Source of the DNA: Rhodothermales bacterium
Lineage (GTDB): Bacteria > Bacteroidota > Rhodothermia > Rhodothermales > UBA10348
Direction: 5' to 3'
Assembly (NCBI GenBank): GCA_028284865.1
Contig: JANQQV010000007.1
Coordinates: forward strand, 62,001 to 126,000
DNA: 64,000 nucleotides
Shown here: positions 14,479 through 21,830 of the stretch, in pieces
How the letters are laid out: each line of letters opens with the position of its first letter
Numbering within the stretch: position 1 is the first letter of the stretch
Position numbers and translations under genes: made by a program
The notes under the pieces: generated by a model
Databases searched by the model: none
Told to the model about the DNA's origin: nothing
What the model saw: the letters and a program-made list of their open reading frames with translations, nothing else

Positions 14479-15711
14479 TTATCGGATTCGGATGGCTTGA
14501 ATGGGTTCCAGACGTCCCGCGACCTTGGCGGGAATCCAGGATGAAATGGCGCACAGCACCAGCGTAATCACGGCGACCAGGACGAAATCAATCAGTCCGA
14601 GGTCGATCGGTGCGGTGTCCATGTAGTAGGCTTCAGCAGGCAATGGAATGATTCCAAACTGCTTCTGCGCCCACGCAAAAATAAGTGCCGATGCCTGACC
14701 GATCATTACACCGGCACCGCCGATCAGCAAACCAAGTCGCACGAAAATGCGACGACGCGTTTTCGAAGTGGCTCCCATCCCCGCCAGAATGCCCATTTCG
14801 CGTCGCTTCTCGAGGATGATCATCAGCAACGTGCCGATAATGTTGACCGCGGCCACAAATATGATGATGGAGATGATCAAAGGGATGATGCTCTCTTGCA
14901 GTGCAACCCATGCAAACAGGCTCCGATAGATTTCCGTCACGGGTCGGGCGATGGCAGGAAATTCCAGGACTTCATCGAGTCGATCAGCGGCATCCACAAA
15001 CTGAACACCCTCATTGACCCGCAAATCGAATCGGGTGACCTGATCCGGACCGTATTCCAGCAGGTCTCGGGTCTCCTCTATCGGAGCGAATACATACAGA
15101 TCATCGAAGTCAGCGAGTGAAGACTCATAGATCCCCGATACCGTGAATTGACTGAATCTCGGATTCTGAGCCTGTCCAGCATTTCCCTGGACCGAGATGG
15201 CCGTCAGCCGATCGCCGACGCCTACCCCAAGGACACGCGCTAACGAAGCCCCAATGACCAGTCCAGGGCGATCACCTGCTGGCCTGAGATCCCCACTCCC
15301 CGCAACGAGCGCTGACGTGATGTAGTCGGGAATCTCAGGCGTTCCCCAGATCGAAACACCATCGATGTCCCGCGATGAGCGTCGAAGCAGAATGAATTCC
15401 TGAACGACCGGCGAGACTTCGCTGAGGATCTGTTGACGTTCGAGTAGTTGCTGAAGCGCTGCCACGTCGTCAAGCGGCTCGTCGCGAATGCTCTGGACCT
15501 GAACGTGAGCGGCAAATCCGGTGATCTTGTTCTCGATTTCGCCACTGAAGCCGCGCACGATGGACAACGCCAGAATGAGCGATGCGACACCAACGGCGAC
15601 CCCTGCGATCGATATCCACGTGATCATCCGCAGAAAACGGCGCCCTTCTGCCATGCCTTGGGCACCGCGCAAATAGCGTCTGGCAATGAACGATTCGAAG
15701 TGGAAGGCCAT
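14479..15711 (-). CDS. LolC/LolE-family ABC transporter permease
   Basis: About 410 residues from ATG 15711, where MAFHFESFIARRYLRG gives the typical family start. The longer open frame adds 28 arginine- and cysteine-rich residues that look non-coding. An N-terminal membrane helix (MITWISIAGVAVGVASLILALSIVRGF) is followed by a large periplasmic domain (MacB-PCD type) and three C-terminal membrane helices with the REMGILAGMGATSKT coupling region. The family extracts lipoproteins from the inner membrane or drives mechanotransmission with an ATPase partner. No LolD-type ATPase is adjacent, so it must be elsewhere. It leads the operon with peroxiredoxin, moaD and moaE. Confidence 0.88.
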   Translation of the reverse strand: MAFHFESFIARRYLRGAQGMAEGRRFLRMITWISIAGVAVGVASLILALSIVRGFSGEIENKITGFAAHVQVQSIRDEPLDDVAALQQLLERQQILSEVSPVVQEFILLRRSSRDIDGVSIWGTPEIPDYITSALVAGSGDLRPAGDRPGLVIGASLARVLGVGVGDRLTAISVQGNAGQAQNPRFSQFTVSGIYESSLADFDDLYVFAPIEETRDLLEYGPDQVTRFDLRVNEGVQFVDAADRLDEVLEFPAIARPVTEIYRSLFAWVALQESIIPLIISIIIFVAAVNIIGTLLMIILEKRREMGILAGMGATSKTRRRIFVRLGLLIGGAGVMIGQASALIFAWAQKQFGIIPLPAEAYYMDTAPIDLGLIDFVLVAVITLVLCAISSWIPAKVAGRLEPIQAIRIR

Positions 15712-15863
15712 CGGGCGCGATTGGGTCGTCTGCTGCGAGCAGCAGCGGCGAATGGAACACGGCAGTCTGACGCGTGGATCTACCGCGGGATCCACCTTCC
15801 CTTATCTGAAATGCGAGTGACACTGCTCGAAATGGTATGCCACCGATCGAATGGATATAAACA

Positions 15864-15899
15864 CGCCGTGCCGGCGGACGAATGTCCGCCGGCACGGCG
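15864..15899 (-). terminator. Perfect 16-bp hairpin downstream of the GvpL/F fusion gene
   Basis: Arms 15864-15879 and 15884-15899 are exact inverse complements around a GAAT loop. On the minus strand the hairpin follows the fusion-gene stop by 57 bases and is followed by GTGTTTATAT, only modestly T-rich. A transcription terminator separating the fusion gene from the permease operon is the simplest reading. Confidence 0.7.
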
Positions 15900-15955
15900 C
15901 TGAACAAACCCCGGTTCAATTCCTGGGAATCGTCACGGGAATGTGTGGGAGCGGA

Positions 15956-18900
15956 CTAGGTGTCCATTCCAGCAAATTCTTCGGAGCTTCCACCAAAGTC
16001 GATGTCCACGAAGTGGTAAGGCGGCCACGGGCCACTTACTTCGATGTGGATACCGAGCGCGTTAAATTCGGCTGCAAGCTTGCGTACCTCGGCGCGGAAG
16101 TCTTCTTCCGATGCCATGGTGATCAAGTACGTGGCGCTGAGAATCATCTCGGTGCCGGCAACCGGGTTTCGCATGGCCTCGCCCGAGAATCGAGCCAGGT
16201 GTCCGTGGATCCGATCAGCAATGCCGTCGGGATTCGGTGCATGCTTTACGTCCGACGCTGCTTTGCGTAGGAAGCTTGCTACGCCACTGGGTACTCCGTC
16301 AAGGTCATCTGCGGCTTCGGCATCCTCGAATCGGACGCGGACGCTGAACTCGGAGCGGTTGTGCAAGCGTGTCAATGCATCCTGAAGGGATTCTTCGCGA
16401 GCATCCACGAACTCTTTGACTTCCGTCGGATTGGCCATCACGCAGCCAAATCGCAATGGGATCACCGTCTGGATGGACTGTGCTTCAGCCAGTACATCAG
16501 CATGGCGACGAACATGCGCTTTGAGCCAGTCTGAATCCGTCATGGAGGCCTTGATGGCATCGGGATGGAATTTGGCATCTGACGTTGCGCTAACCAGGGC
16601 CGTGAGAGGACCGCATGAGAGCAGTCGTACTGAGGAATCATCAGAGATCCCTTCAATTCCCTCGAAGTCCTCCGGCGAGACATCATCGGTCCGGACGACG
16701 CCGAACAGATAGAGAGACGTACGCTTTGCTGTCGGTTTGGGGAACTGTGGCATCCGCGAGCGGCTACCGTCGCCGGAAACGGCGCCAGATACGGCGGCTC
16801 GGTCCACGGGACGAAATTCGTTGACGCGCCAGGTGCGTTTTGTAGCAGCAACCGTCTCATCAGGAGTGACTTCTGTGAGATCACTCAAGCTGGACCATGC
16901 GTCCGATGCTTCCGGCTGGGACTCATCGTTCGCCTCGTCAGCAGGCTCTGACTCTTGTGGTTCGTTGACTTCGACGGGCGGCGAGGCCACAGTTTCTTCG
17001 GCTGCGTCGTTCGACGCCATAGGTTTTTCTTCGACATCGTCTTGACCGGCCTCGGTAGGCATGTCAATCGACGGTGTTGAAGGAGCATCCGATCTGTTTG
17101 CCTGGATGTCGCGGATGGCTGAGCGGAAGAACGCACGTTCGCCCGACTCGTCCATGTCAGCTACAGAGCTGCCGATATCCGTCAACGCGCTGGCAAGCAG
17201 GTTTTCCATGAGGTGGCGCTCGACAATCTTGCGCATGCCGTCCAGCACATCCTGGTGGTCCTGCAATTTGTGACCCGCCTTCTCCACGACCACTTCAGTG
17301 TCACGCATCAGGTTCATGGCTTCGCGAGCCACCTCAGCAATGAGCGTTTCGTGGAGTTTCGCTGCGGCATCCGCCATTTGACGAGAGGTCGCAGGAATCA
17401 AGGTCCGGGACTCTTCCGCTGCCTTCTCGCCATCGGAGATGGACTCCATGGCATCTTTGGCGACCGTAAAGAGCAATTGATTGCGCAGTTCGTCAACAGC
17501 ATCAGCAATGTGATCATGCTGCTGATCAATGTGCCAGAAAGCTTCGGCACTGGTCTTTTCGGCGTCAGCAATGCTGGTCACCACTTGCTCAGCCAAGCCC
17601 TTGAAGAGCTTCATGCGCATGGCTTCCTCGATGGCGTCCAGCTCTTTGGTGGCGCGCAGGAAAGTGCTCGCTTTCTCAGAAGCGTGCTGCACATCGTACA
17701 GACGCTCTTTGGCTGTTTCGGCAACCTGCTGCAAGAGCATGTTCTCCAGAACGCCAGCGGCCTGGCGAACTTCTGCCGGCGTGTCTGACATCCGCTTGCG
17801 AGCGTCTGAGGACACTTTTTCCGTTGAGCGCATGCGAGAACCGACTTCGATGACAATGTCGTCGATCAGCAAGGACATGGTAGCCTTGATGGCACGCTGG
17901 AACACATCGTTGTCCACCGGAACACGCGAGGACGCCTCCGGAGCAACTTCATCCGACGCCGCCAGACGTTCGATGGCCTGCTCAGCGACCCGATCTGTCA
18001 ACAAGCCCAATGTGGCGCTGACTGACTCGATGATTCGCTCATGCTCATTGGCAATACGCTTGTTGGCTTCGGCAGACACCTGCTTGGCGTCTTCCATGTC
18101 GTGGAGAGTCAGATTGACAACTCGCTCGACCAACCTGTTACGCGTTTCGCGAACAGCTGCACGGATCTCTTCCGTTTCTGCGGTGAATGATGGAAGGACG
18201 TTTCCGACTACCGTATCGGTATCGCCGGCCTCTTTCGTGGCACGCTTGCGGACCTCTGCGGTCACGTGCTGCAGGATCTGCTCGACCGCTGCCGACACGA
18301 CAGAGTGGTCTTCCGGAATCCAGGCCATTGCTTTGACCTGAACGGTTTCTGTGTCAGCTAAACGCGTCACAGCGCTTGTGGCGATGTTCTTGATCAGCTC
18401 CTTCTCAAGTGAATCAGTGGCTTCCGTGAGATGACGGTGATCTGTATCCACATGCAGGAAGGCTGCATCAGCGGCTCGCTCGGCCTGGTCCAAACGCGAC
18501 GTTGCCTCGGTAGCCAGGTGCTCATTGATCCGATCAACAATTCCGTCAACCAGATCGGACATGGCTTCCTTCTCAGAGACAATAGAGACAGCAAGGTCTT
18601 CCGCCAGCTGCTCGTCTTGATCCATTTCGGAAACGACCTGCTCAGTCGTTCGAGCGACGACGCGCTTTTTGGCCTCTGCCTCAAGATGCTCCCGCAGAGC
18701 CTGGTTGTCAGAAACGTGCTGTTCGATGCTATCAGTAATGGTTGCTGTGAACACCTCGTCATTGGCCATTGCTTCTTCAATGGCCGAAACGACGCGAGAT
18801 GCTATTCCAGCTTCAGCTTCCTCTAATGCTGCACGCCAATCGGCGGACAAGAGGAAGCGCTCCATGCGCTCAGATACAAACTCTTTCTGGATGCGTGTCA

Positions 18901-19795
18901 GGGTCTGGCGCGTGGCAGCTACCTGCTCATCCAGTTCTTCCTGGATTCTCTGATCCAAGGACTCAGCCACCATGCTGCGCAGACGTCCGATCATATCGTC
19001 TGCGTTCATGCATGCAACGGCGTCCTTGACCTGGCCTTCGAATCGGGAGACATCGCTGTTTTCCAGCTTGGCAGTCTCCTCGGCGACAGCCGCTGGCAAG
19101 ACATGACTGTTGATCCGGGATTCAATCTCGTTCCGCACCAGTTTGAAGATGTCCGAAAGGTCGGCTTCGTCCATGCGGCTCTTGACCAGGCTCTCAGCGG
19201 CTTCAATGTCCTGGGCAGCTTCATCGATGGAATCCGCTACCGCTTTCTGGGTCAGCCCTTCAGTCAGTTCAGATATCATGGACGCGCTCAGCTCCTGTGC
19301 CGCCTTTCGTACATCCGAAAAGTCAGCTGAAGCCAGTTGGTCCTTGACCATCTCCTTGACACTCACGGTATCAGGAGTGATGTCTTCCAGCGATTCCGTG
19401 ACCACAGATGCCACGATCTCGTTGCACAGCTCTTCGATCATCGACTCATTCAGGTCCCGAACGGAAGACTGAACCGATGAAAGATCTGACTGGGAGATCT
19501 GGTTTTTGACCAGGCTACGGACGGCCTCGTTGTCGGGCGTCATTTCCGAGATGGACTCAGAAACAACAGATGAGACAATCTCGCTGCGAAGGTCGTCCAC
19601 CATGGACGCCTTAAGAGATTCGATGGCATCCTGCATACCGTCTTCGGCCAGGATGTCTTGAACGTCAGAACCGATGCCCTCGTGAGAAGCATCATTCAGT
19701 TCATCTACGACCTGCTGGATGAGCGAGCGAAGCAGTTGCTTCTTCACTGCATCCCGCGCGTCAGAGACGTTCGTCTGATCGGGTTTGAAAAACAT
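15956..19795 (-). CDS. Giant helical-repeat protein with C-terminal GvpL/GvpF gas-vesicle domain
   Basis: 1279 residues, very acidic, with no signal peptide. Residues 1-870 are almost entirely predicted amphipathic helix, built of degenerate units of 52-54 residues. The clearest are three tandem 54-residue copies at 64-117, 118-171 and 172-225. Later copies carry xLxDxExVxxEA and VAExAxxRL patterns. A low-complexity Glu/Ser/Pro linker follows. Residues 1024-1270 form a full GvpL/GvpF domain: SLYLFGVV, DWLKAHVRRHADVL, IQTVIPLRFGCVM and the ending SGPWPPYHFVDIDF. GvpL/F proteins are normally 210-280 residues and act in gas-vesicle assembly. Nothing else gvp-like is nearby, so this one may do something else. 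A hairpin terminator follows the gene. Confidence 0.85.
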   Translation of the reverse strand: MFFKPDQTNVSDARDAVKKQLLRSLIQQVVDELNDASHEGIGSDVQDILAEDGMQDAIESLKASMVDDLRSEIVSSVVSESISEMTPDNEAVRSLVKNQISQSDLSSVQSSVRDLNESMIEELCNEIVASVVTESLEDITPDTVSVKEMVKDQLASADFSDVRKAAQELSASMISELTEGLTQKAVADSIDEAAQDIEAAESLVKSRMDEADLSDIFKLVRNEIESRINSHVLPAAVAEETAKLENSDVSRFEGQVKDAVACMNADDMIGRLRSMVAESLDQRIQEELDEQVAATRQTLTRIQKEFVSERMERFLLSADWRAALEEAEAGIASRVVSAIEEAMANDEVFTATITDSIEQHVSDNQALREHLEAEAKKRVVARTTEQVVSEMDQDEQLAEDLAVSIVSEKEAMSDLVDGIVDRINEHLATEATSRLDQAERAADAAFLHVDTDHRHLTEATDSLEKELIKNIATSAVTRLADTETVQVKAMAWIPEDHSVVSAAVEQILQHVTAEVRKRATKEAGDTDTVVGNVLPSFTAETEEIRAAVRETRNRLVERVVNLTLHDMEDAKQVSAEANKRIANEHERIIESVSATLGLLTDRVAEQAIERLAASDEVAPEASSRVPVDNDVFQRAIKATMSLLIDDIVIEVGSRMRSTEKVSSDARKRMSDTPAEVRQAAGVLENMLLQQVAETAKERLYDVQHASEKASTFLRATKELDAIEEAMRMKLFKGLAEQVVTSIADAEKTSAEAFWHIDQQHDHIADAVDELRNQLLFTVAKDAMESISDGEKAAEESRTLIPATSRQMADAAAKLHETLIAEVAREAMNLMRDTEVVVEKAGHKLQDHQDVLDGMRKIVERHLMENLLASALTDIGSSVADMDESGERAFFRSAIRDIQANRSDAPSTPSIDMPTEAGQDDVEEKPMASNDAAEETVASPPVEVNEPQESEPADEANDESQPEASDAWSSLSDLTEVTPDETVAATKRTWRVNEFRPVDRAAVSGAVSGDGSRSRMPQFPKPTAKRTSLYLFGVVRTDDVSPEDFEGIEGISDDSSVRLLSCGPLTALVSATSDAKFHPDAIKASMTDSDWLKAHVRRHADVLAEAQSIQTVIPLRFGCVMANPTEVKEFVDAREESLQDALTRLHNRSEFSVRVRFEDAEAADDLDGVPSGVASFLRKAASDVKHAPNPDGIADRIHGHLARFSGEAMRNPVAGTEMILSATYLITMASEEDFRAEVRKLAAEFNALGIHIEVSGPWPPYHFVDIDFGGSSEEFAGMDT
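19121..19606 (-). repeat. Three tandem 54-codon repeats within the GvpL/F fusion gene
   Basis: Residues 64-225 of the fusion protein split into three units of exactly 54 residues, each beginning with SM(V/I)xxL and containing xSLVKxxxxxxDLSxxxxxxR-type second halves. They are the best-preserved copies of a repeat that covers most of the protein in more diverged form. Confidence 0.7.
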
Positions 19796-20103
19796 GGCTG
19801 TATCCCGTTATCCGGGGATTGATCGGAGTTTGTTCAATCCCGGTATCGGCGAACATCGTGCCGACCAAACCCAAAAAGCCCGTTTCGACCAGTAAATCGG
19901 CGGATTTAGGCCTTTATGAGCATCTCATGGCGGTTTTGGGGCCATTTCTTCACCATCACCCATCCGCATTTGGAGCGCATACTGAAGGGCGCACAGGCGG
20001 AATTCTTTCCGCATCAACGGAAAATGATGCCACGAGATTGCGCATCGCTATTCTCTTCAGAAAGCGCTTTTTCGGGGCTTGGGACGAAGTTTTCGAGAAC
20101 GGG

Positions 20104-20134
20104 TTTGGGACCCCCGAACGGGATGTTACCTTTC
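20104..20134 (+). promoter_or_regulatory. Bacteroidota-type promoter-like element upstream of P5C dehydrogenase
   Basis: TTTG at 20104-20107, a 19-base spacer, then TACCTTTC at 20127-20134. The known Bacteroidota consensus is TTTG, 19-21 bases, TAnnTTTG, so this differs at one position. It ends 46 bases before the chosen ATG. The whole 19796-20180 gap (385 bases) holds the divergent promoters of the fusion gene and this gene; I see no convincing gene in it. Confidence 0.4.
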
Positions 20135-20180
20135 CCGAATCGGCCTCTTTCGTACTCACCAGAATGCCTGCTTCGCTCCT

Positions 20181-21830
20181 ATGAACAACATGTTCTCCCG
20201 CACGCCTGATCCTGTCAACGAACCCGTTCGTTCGTACGCCCCCGGCTCACCGGAACGCGCCTCGCTTCGAAGCGAGATGAAGCGTATGAAAGGGGAAACG
20301 ATCGATATCCCTGCCTTCATACACGGCAAGGAAGTTCGTTCAGGAAACATCATCGATGTAGTCGCTCCCCACGAGCACAGCCGGGTTCTGGGAAAGGCAC
20401 ACCAGTTGTCAGGTGACAACATCAATGCAGCCATCGACTCTGCCGTTTCCGCCCGGAACGACTGGATGAACATGGATTGGACCGATCGCGCAGCTGTCTT
20501 CCTGAAAGCGGCTGAATTGCTTGCCGGCCCTTGGCGCGATGTCATCAATGCCTCCACGATGCTGGGCCAGAGCAAGAACCCATATCAGGCAGAAATCGAC
20601 TCCGCCTGTGAGCTGATCGACTTCTTCCGGTTCAACGTGCGCTTCATGGAGCAGATCTACAAGGATCAGCCCATCTCCTCGCCAGGCGTCTGGAACCGGG
20701 TCCAGTACCGTGCCCTCGAAGGATTCGTATTCGCCGTCACGCCGTTCAACTTCACGTCGATCGCCGGTAACCTGCCGACAGCACCGGCCCTCATGGGGAA
20801 TACAGTTCTCTGGAAACCTGCTTCCACGCAGCTTCTGAGTGCCTACTACCTGTACAAGATGTTTGAGGAAGCAGGGCTGCCCCCGGGAGTCATCAACGTC
20901 GTGCCTGGCCGTGGCGCCGACGTGGGCGATCCCATCTTTGCTTCAGAGCATTTCGCTGGTCTTCACTTCACGGGCTCAACCGGCACATTCAACTACATGT
21001 GGAAGACCATCGGCAACAACATGGACACCTACCGTGGCTACCCACGGGTCGTTGGTGAGACGGGCGGCAAGGACTACATCCTGGCCCACCCAAGCGCCGA
21101 TCCGATTGCTGTCGCCACGGCTATTGTGCGTGGCGGATTCGAGTATCAGGGACAGAAGTGCTCTGCTGCCTCGCGCGTCTACCTTCCCAAGTCGCTGTGG
21201 CCGACGATCAAGGACAGCATGCTGGCCCAGTTGGACGATATCTCGATGGGGCCAGTGGAAGACTTCACCAACTTCGTCAACGCCGTCATCGACAAAAAGG
21301 CATACGATTCGATCACCTCGTACATCGCAGAAGCCAAGCAGTCCTCCGACATTGAGGTCATTGCTGGTGGTAACTACTCGGACGAAGTCGGGTACTTCAT
21401 CGAGCCGACCGTGCTGCTGACTTCCGATCCGAAGTATCGCACCATGTGCGAGGAAATCTTTGGCCCCGTGGTCACGGTTTTCGTGTACGATGATGCCGAT
21501 TTCAATGCGACGGTTGATCTGCTCAACCAGACCTCACCGTTTGCGCTCACAGGCGCCATCTTCTCGCAGGACCGCGCAGCCCTCGCTTCAATGTCTGCTC
21601 GTCTCGTGGATTCCGCCGGAAACTTCTACCTGAACGACAAGCCCACCGGCGCGGTCGTCGGGCAACAGCCATTTGGTGGTGCACGTGCTTCCGGTACGAA
21701 CGACAAGGCGGGTTCTTACCTGAACCTGGTCCGCTGGGTATCCGCACGATCAATCAAGGAAACCTTCAATCCGCCAAAGCACTACGCGTATCCATTCCAT
21801 CAGGAGGATCCAAACGACCTTCCGCTCTGA
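20181..21830 (+). CDS. pruA: L-glutamate gamma-semialdehyde (1-pyrroline-5-carboxylate) dehydrogenase, ALDH4 type
   Basis: 549 residues from ATG 20181, chosen because the upstream 34 codons are not conserved-looking and the promoter-like element lies inside them. It oxidises glutamate-5-semialdehyde to glutamate with NAD+, the second step of proline and ornithine breakdown. The catalytic glutamate is E293 in VGETGGKD and the catalytic cysteine is C327 in GQKCSAASRVY. The N-terminal extension and the LHFTGSTGTFNYMWKTIG block match the ALDH4A1-like branch. No proline dehydrogenase is adjacent. The next gene on the strand encodes a diaminopentanoate-dehydrogenase-like enzyme, which suggests amino acid catabolism. 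Confidence 0.93.
   Translation: MNNMFSRTPDPVNEPVRSYAPGSPERASLRSEMKRMKGETIDIPAFIHGKEVRSGNIIDVVAPHEHSRVLGKAHQLSGDNINAAIDSAVSARNDWMNMDWTDRAAVFLKAAELLAGPWRDVINASTMLGQSKNPYQAEIDSACELIDFFRFNVRFMEQIYKDQPISSPGVWNRVQYRALEGFVFAVTPFNFTSIAGNLPTAPALMGNTVLWKPASTQLLSAYYLYKMFEEAGLPPGVINVVPGRGADVGDPIFASEHFAGLHFTGSTGTFNYMWKTIGNNMDTYRGYPRVVGETGGKDYILAHPSADPIAVATAIVRGGFEYQGQKCSAASRVYLPKSLWPTIKDSMLAQLDDISMGPVEDFTNFVNAVIDKKAYDSITSYIAEAKQSSDIEVIAGGNYSDEVGYFIEPTVLLTSDPKYRTMCEEIFGPVVTVFVYDDADFNATVDLLNQTSPFALTGAIFSQDRAALASMSARLVDSAGNFYLNDKPTGAVVGQQPFGGARASGTNDKAGSYLNLVRWVSARSIKETFNPPKHYAYPFHQEDPNDLPL

Follow-up and report, generated by a model that had tools for sequence, protein, structure and literature searches.

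A single gene in the genome of a Rhodothermales bacterium combines an array of eleven amphipathic helical units of 44 residues with a complete GvpL/GvpF (GvpL/F) domain, the two being connected by a predicted disordered acidic linker. A strong terminator follows the gene, which purifying selection maintains in a clade without gvpA. The gene lies in the window, which here means the whole 64,000-nucleotide stretch of DNA that was analyzed, and the features of the locus are listed in Table 1. We tentatively propose, at slightly less than an even chance, that the fusion protein is a gas-vesicle assembly factor co-opted to work without gas vesicles, serving as a cytosolic multivalent scaffold or chaperone whose client is not GvpA. 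In a literature search of incomplete coverage, no description of a fusion of GvpL/F with a helical array was found, and the roles of GvpL/F are given solely as those of parts of gas-vesicle assembly (PMC9501494, PMC11445434).

Table 1. Features of the fusion gene and its surroundings (positions in the window)
Feature	Position	Strand	Evidence or remark
Helical-repeat/GvpL–GvpF fusion protein, 1279 aa	15956..19795	−	ORF and translation; orthologs in many relatives
N-terminal region, diverged ~54-residue units, aa 1–300	18896..19795	−	Lag 54
Conserved first unit TNVSDARDAVKKQLLRSLIQQVVDELN..., aa 8–43	19667..19774	−	Common to nearly all fusions
Array of eleven 44-residue helical units, aa 444–927	17015..18466	−	Lag 44; unit HMM steps
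Acidic, predicted disordered, fast-evolving linker, aa 928–1022	16730..17014	−	pLDDT ~30–40; identity; pI 4.2
GvpL/GvpF domain, aa 1028–1264	16004..16714	−	PF06386, E = 4.2e-42; AlphaFold pLDDT; Foldseek 6l5d, 4qsg
Strong intrinsic terminator, 17-bp stem, between the fusion and LolE-type genes	15863..15900	−	−39.8 kcal/mol
LolC/E-type FtsX/MacB permease, syntenic neighbor	14479..15795	−	Probably a separate transcription unit
Aldehyde dehydrogenase, divergent syntenic neighbor	20079..21830	+	PF00171

Architecture of the fusion protein

The ORF is intact and starts with ATG. The preliminary description, made from the sequence alone, had placed a complete C-terminal GvpL/F domain at residues 1024–1270, and this assignment is confirmed: the Pfam model GvpL_GvpF (PF06386) matches the domain over profile positions 2–245 of 245, with a score of 145 bits against the curated cut-off of 23.6. 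The invariant residues of GvpL/F are present. The AlphaFold pLDDT is ~93–98 over most of the domain, which Foldseek groups with the two GvpF crystal structures; the comparison with 6l5d gave a probability of 1.00 and a target TM score of 0.75. The domain is the sole GvpL/F in the genome (3.48 Mb, 97.7% complete). Its scores against the NCBI equivalogs for GvpL and GvpF (NF045778 and NF052351), 42.6 and 39.9 bits, are below the cut-offs of 200 and 350, as are those of a Chloroflexota protein inside a gas-vesicle cluster (L077). The fusion resembles the GvpF and GvpL proteins of gas-vesicle clusters in the completeness of the domain, its invariant residues, and its fold, but differs from them in the lack of gvpA, gvpK, and gvpG, in the addition of ~1000 residues that are mostly helical repeats, and probably in being transcribed alone.

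The part in front of the domain had been described as roughly sixteen units of 52–54 residues. The repeats are real, but their main array consists of about 11 units of 44 residues, and a unit of ~54 residues is restricted to aa 1–300. The best lag was 44 residues in aa 444–927 and 54 residues in aa 1–300, and none of 1000 shuffles scored as high in either region; the protein thus contains ~11 units of 44 residues and a more diverged N-terminal third. A profile HMM of the unit located 11 units between aa 444 and 884 in exact 44-residue steps without indels. Same-genus orthologs are 30–36% identical across the first 40% of the protein. Within the genus, the linker is 34–40% identical, compared with 58–64% for the GvpL/F domain. 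Structure prediction of the repeats, which had been suggested as a check, returned long helices, but with low confidence: pLDDT was ~50–70 in the repeats, compared with ~30–40 in the linker, and 51 in a repeat-only model of the array. The amphipathic periodicity of the repeats is 3.65–3.67 residues. Scans of the repeats and of the companion genes described below against Pfam and NCBIfam gave only matches below the cut-offs.

Amphipathic units of this kind might form a surface coat that wraps a hydrophobic inclusion or a membrane in the manner of GvpC or apolipoproteins, with the GvpL/F head recruiting another protein. The observed periodicity and a weak match to an apolipoprotein domain (E = 0.14) are consistent with such a coat, and GvpC, too, has tandem helical repeats, of 32–40 residues, in its gas-vesicle setting (PMC9501494). 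However, 3.67 is also the harmonic of the strict 44-residue period that lies nearest to the α-helix, so the periodicity is weak evidence for a coat. Every match to known coats, including that to the apolipoprotein domain, was below the cut-off, and no inclusion gene was recognized among the neighbors. The fusion differs from GvpC in lacking a Pfam GvpC match, in its 44-residue unit, in possessing a GvpL/F domain, and in having no gas vesicle to coat. We regard the coat as unlikely. Somewhat less likely still is a cell-length filament or rod, an example given in the preliminary description, in which the repeats would form a continuous rigid polymer capped or anchored by the GvpL/F domain. Such a rod would agree with the long helices predicted throughout, with the exact 44-residue register across 11–12 units, and with a protein length that varies from ~680 to 1917 aa among relatives. 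Nevertheless, repeat models of the confidence given above allow no polymer interface to be inferred, and the large differences in length fit a flexible multivalent array equally well.

Distribution and selection

GvpL/F matches were found in 41 of the 100 genomes sampled from the order and in 19 of 27 genomes of the family to which the window belongs. The dN/dS values by segment of the fusion are ~0.06–0.3 where estimable; in pairs with unsaturated dS, they are 0.06–0.10 for the GvpL/F domain and ~0.07–0.17 for the repeats, and all of these values are rough because many pairs lie near dS saturation. Two genomes of the same genus carry truncated alleles, either of which could be an assembly error: only an N-terminal frame of 255 aa is left in G006 (L155 3008–3775), and the allele of G005 (L156 1–1780), located just before the conserved terminator, is devoid of the GvpL/F domain. 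These alleles suggest that the gene is dispensable in some lineages. Together with the empty site in a further relative (G012) and the lack of gvpA, the truncations would also be expected if the gene were a functionless remnant, now decaying, of a gas-vesicle cluster that has been lost, but the dN/dS values well below 1 for both the domain and the repeats in several independent pairs, as well as the frame that is intact across families at lengths of up to 1917 aa, argue against decay, and we consider a relic improbable.

Two variants were noted among the relatives. In one fusion (L068 5925–8234, G027), the GvpL/F domain seemingly lacks its N-terminal half, with a Pfam match to positions 169–245 only. 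Both G091 (L067 9247–10656) and G198 encode an additional, divergent GvpL/F relative whose N-terminal motif resembles that of the fusions.

Absence of gas-vesicle genes

The preliminary description reported no gas-vesicle cluster with the fusion and proposed a search of the whole genome, and both the window and the genome bear it out. No gvpA was found within the window, and the gvpA search gave no match in the fusion genome, whereas the same search was positive in two relatives (G063 and G095). For gvpK and gvpG, no match above the cut-off was obtained genome-wide, whereas the positive controls (G063, G191, and G201) matched both models. By these searches, the genome lacks the genes for gas-vesicle biogenesis (gvpA, gvpK, and gvpG). 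Some relatives gave weak C-terminal matches resembling GvpG, which were below the cut-off and were left out of the counts. Across the order, gvpA is missing from 98 of 100 relatives, and both relatives that bear it carry their own short GvpL/F genes. Among 80 GvpL/F loci from named genomes, gvpA, scored within ~6 kb on each side of the locus, accompanies every one of the 75 that fall outside the clade and none of the five fusion loci. A giant gas-vesicle assembly factor serving a distant gvp locus, one of two options offered earlier, would suit a domain of the GvpL/F family but is already contradicted and very improbable, since gvpA, gvpK, and gvpG are absent above the cut-offs not only here but also in the fusion-bearing relatives tested, whereas the models are positive in relatives with gas-vesicle clusters.

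In another genome (G080), a 282-aa GvpL/F of the gas-vesicle type is encoded (L063 9158–10006), and the gvpA model matched nothing in that genome.

Phylogeny and origin of the array

Phylogenetic analysis of 100 GvpL/F domains placed the 23 fusion rows together in a single clade (support 99/94) and six short GvpL/F forms in a separate clade (100/97). The two clades join with moderate support (85/87) and adjoin gas-vesicle GvpL/F proteins of Chloroflexota and Armatimonadota, and the gas-vesicle GvpL/F proteins from the same order are located elsewhere in the tree, away from the fusions. The second option offered earlier, that the GvpL/F fold has been put to a new use, gains support from this single clade of gvpA-less proteins under purifying selection.

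In the short-form lineages, GvpL/F is preceded by small genes bearing the helix motif EARxEALAEAKAIIKERMLQAILE. One to three such genes stand before a short gvpA-less GvpL/F at L055 (G032), L059 (G042), L060 (G061), L070 (G054), and L071 (G033). For three of the companion genes, no Pfam or NCBIfam model scored above its cut-off. A helix profile built from companions only was run on 23,156 frames; it matched the f7 companions (2e-15), the Chloroflexota GvpL/F L077 (6e-9), the N-termini of the short GvpL/F proteins (~1e-7), and, weakly, the fusion repeats (best E ~6e-4). A search of 15 whole genomes located the helix motif exclusively within GvpL/F genes or close to them, with the exception of three matches in G045, which are on contig C45, whereas the GvpL/F of this genome is on a separate short contig (C246). 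These matches support the view that the fusion array and the companion genes are expansions of one helix motif, which is also found N-terminal to GvpL/F of a Chloroflexota gas-vesicle cluster. The array may have grown from this helix, the step between the companion motif and the 44-residue unit being the weakest link in this derivation.

The long-form gas-vesicle GvpL/F proteins of Chloroflexota (L077 and L078) are nearest to the fusion in the tree, and L077 shares the N-terminal helix motif. Unlike the fusion, they have one helix motif and no array, and their genes are located beside gvpA. The short GvpL/F proteins of the relatives f3, f7, and f8, which belong to the sister clade, and their companions possess the same helix motif in genomes without gvpA, but their helix modules are separate small genes at another genomic site. 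The preliminary description had asked whether homologs carry the two parts as separate neighboring gvp genes. In a sister lineage, the parts are indeed separate neighbors, but still without gvpA; this arrangement bears on the origin of the fusion and does not restore gas vesicles.

Proposed function

GvpF is a chaperone that binds GvpA, and GvpL serves other Gvp proteins as a platform (PMC9501494, PMC11445434). By analogy with these roles, we propose that the co-opted fusion protein acts as a soluble scaffold or chaperone in the cytosol. Just as GvpF binds GvpA, the GvpL/F head would bind a putative amphipathic client; the helical array may self-associate or supply avidity. Weighing against this proposal are the housekeeping character of the conserved neighbors, the truncated alleles of G005 and G006, the low confidence of the repeat models, and the helix link to the 44-residue units, which is weak by itself. 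A bolder version, which we consider possible but rather doubtful, is that GvpL/F and the helical array, as one giant protein here and as several small genes in the sister clade, constitute a gas-vesicle-free assembly system that constructs, or chaperones, an undescribed structure in the cytosol from a client other than GvpA. A conserved GvpL/F with a helical array and without the shell protein would show that the chaperone can serve another client, and the clade offers a simple system for asking what the GvpL/F domain itself recognizes.

Genomic context and transcription

The fusion is not an isolated case. Inspection of homologs and their neighbors revealed 24 loci, from several families of the order, in which the long fusion is directly upstream of the LolC/E-type permease gene on the same strand and mostly divergent from the aldehyde dehydrogenase gene. 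As stated in the preliminary description, the neighbors are unrelated to gas vesicles; they are housekeeping-type genes and remain in place where the fusion gene is absent. In fusion-less genomes, the permease and aldehyde dehydrogenase genes are often adjacent, which indicates a presence/absence site. The terminator between the fusion and the permease genes makes it probable that the fusion gene is monocistronic at its 3′ end and transcribed alone. An operon or functional link with the LolE-type permease was rejected because this terminator separates the genes; the permease is a mere neighbor and provides no evidence on the function of the fusion. A strong hairpin with a T-rich tail soon after the stop codon was found in 14 of the 22 fusion loci scanned, as a raw count without shuffle calibration. 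In the terminator hairpin of G005, a compensatory change from T–A to G–C is present.
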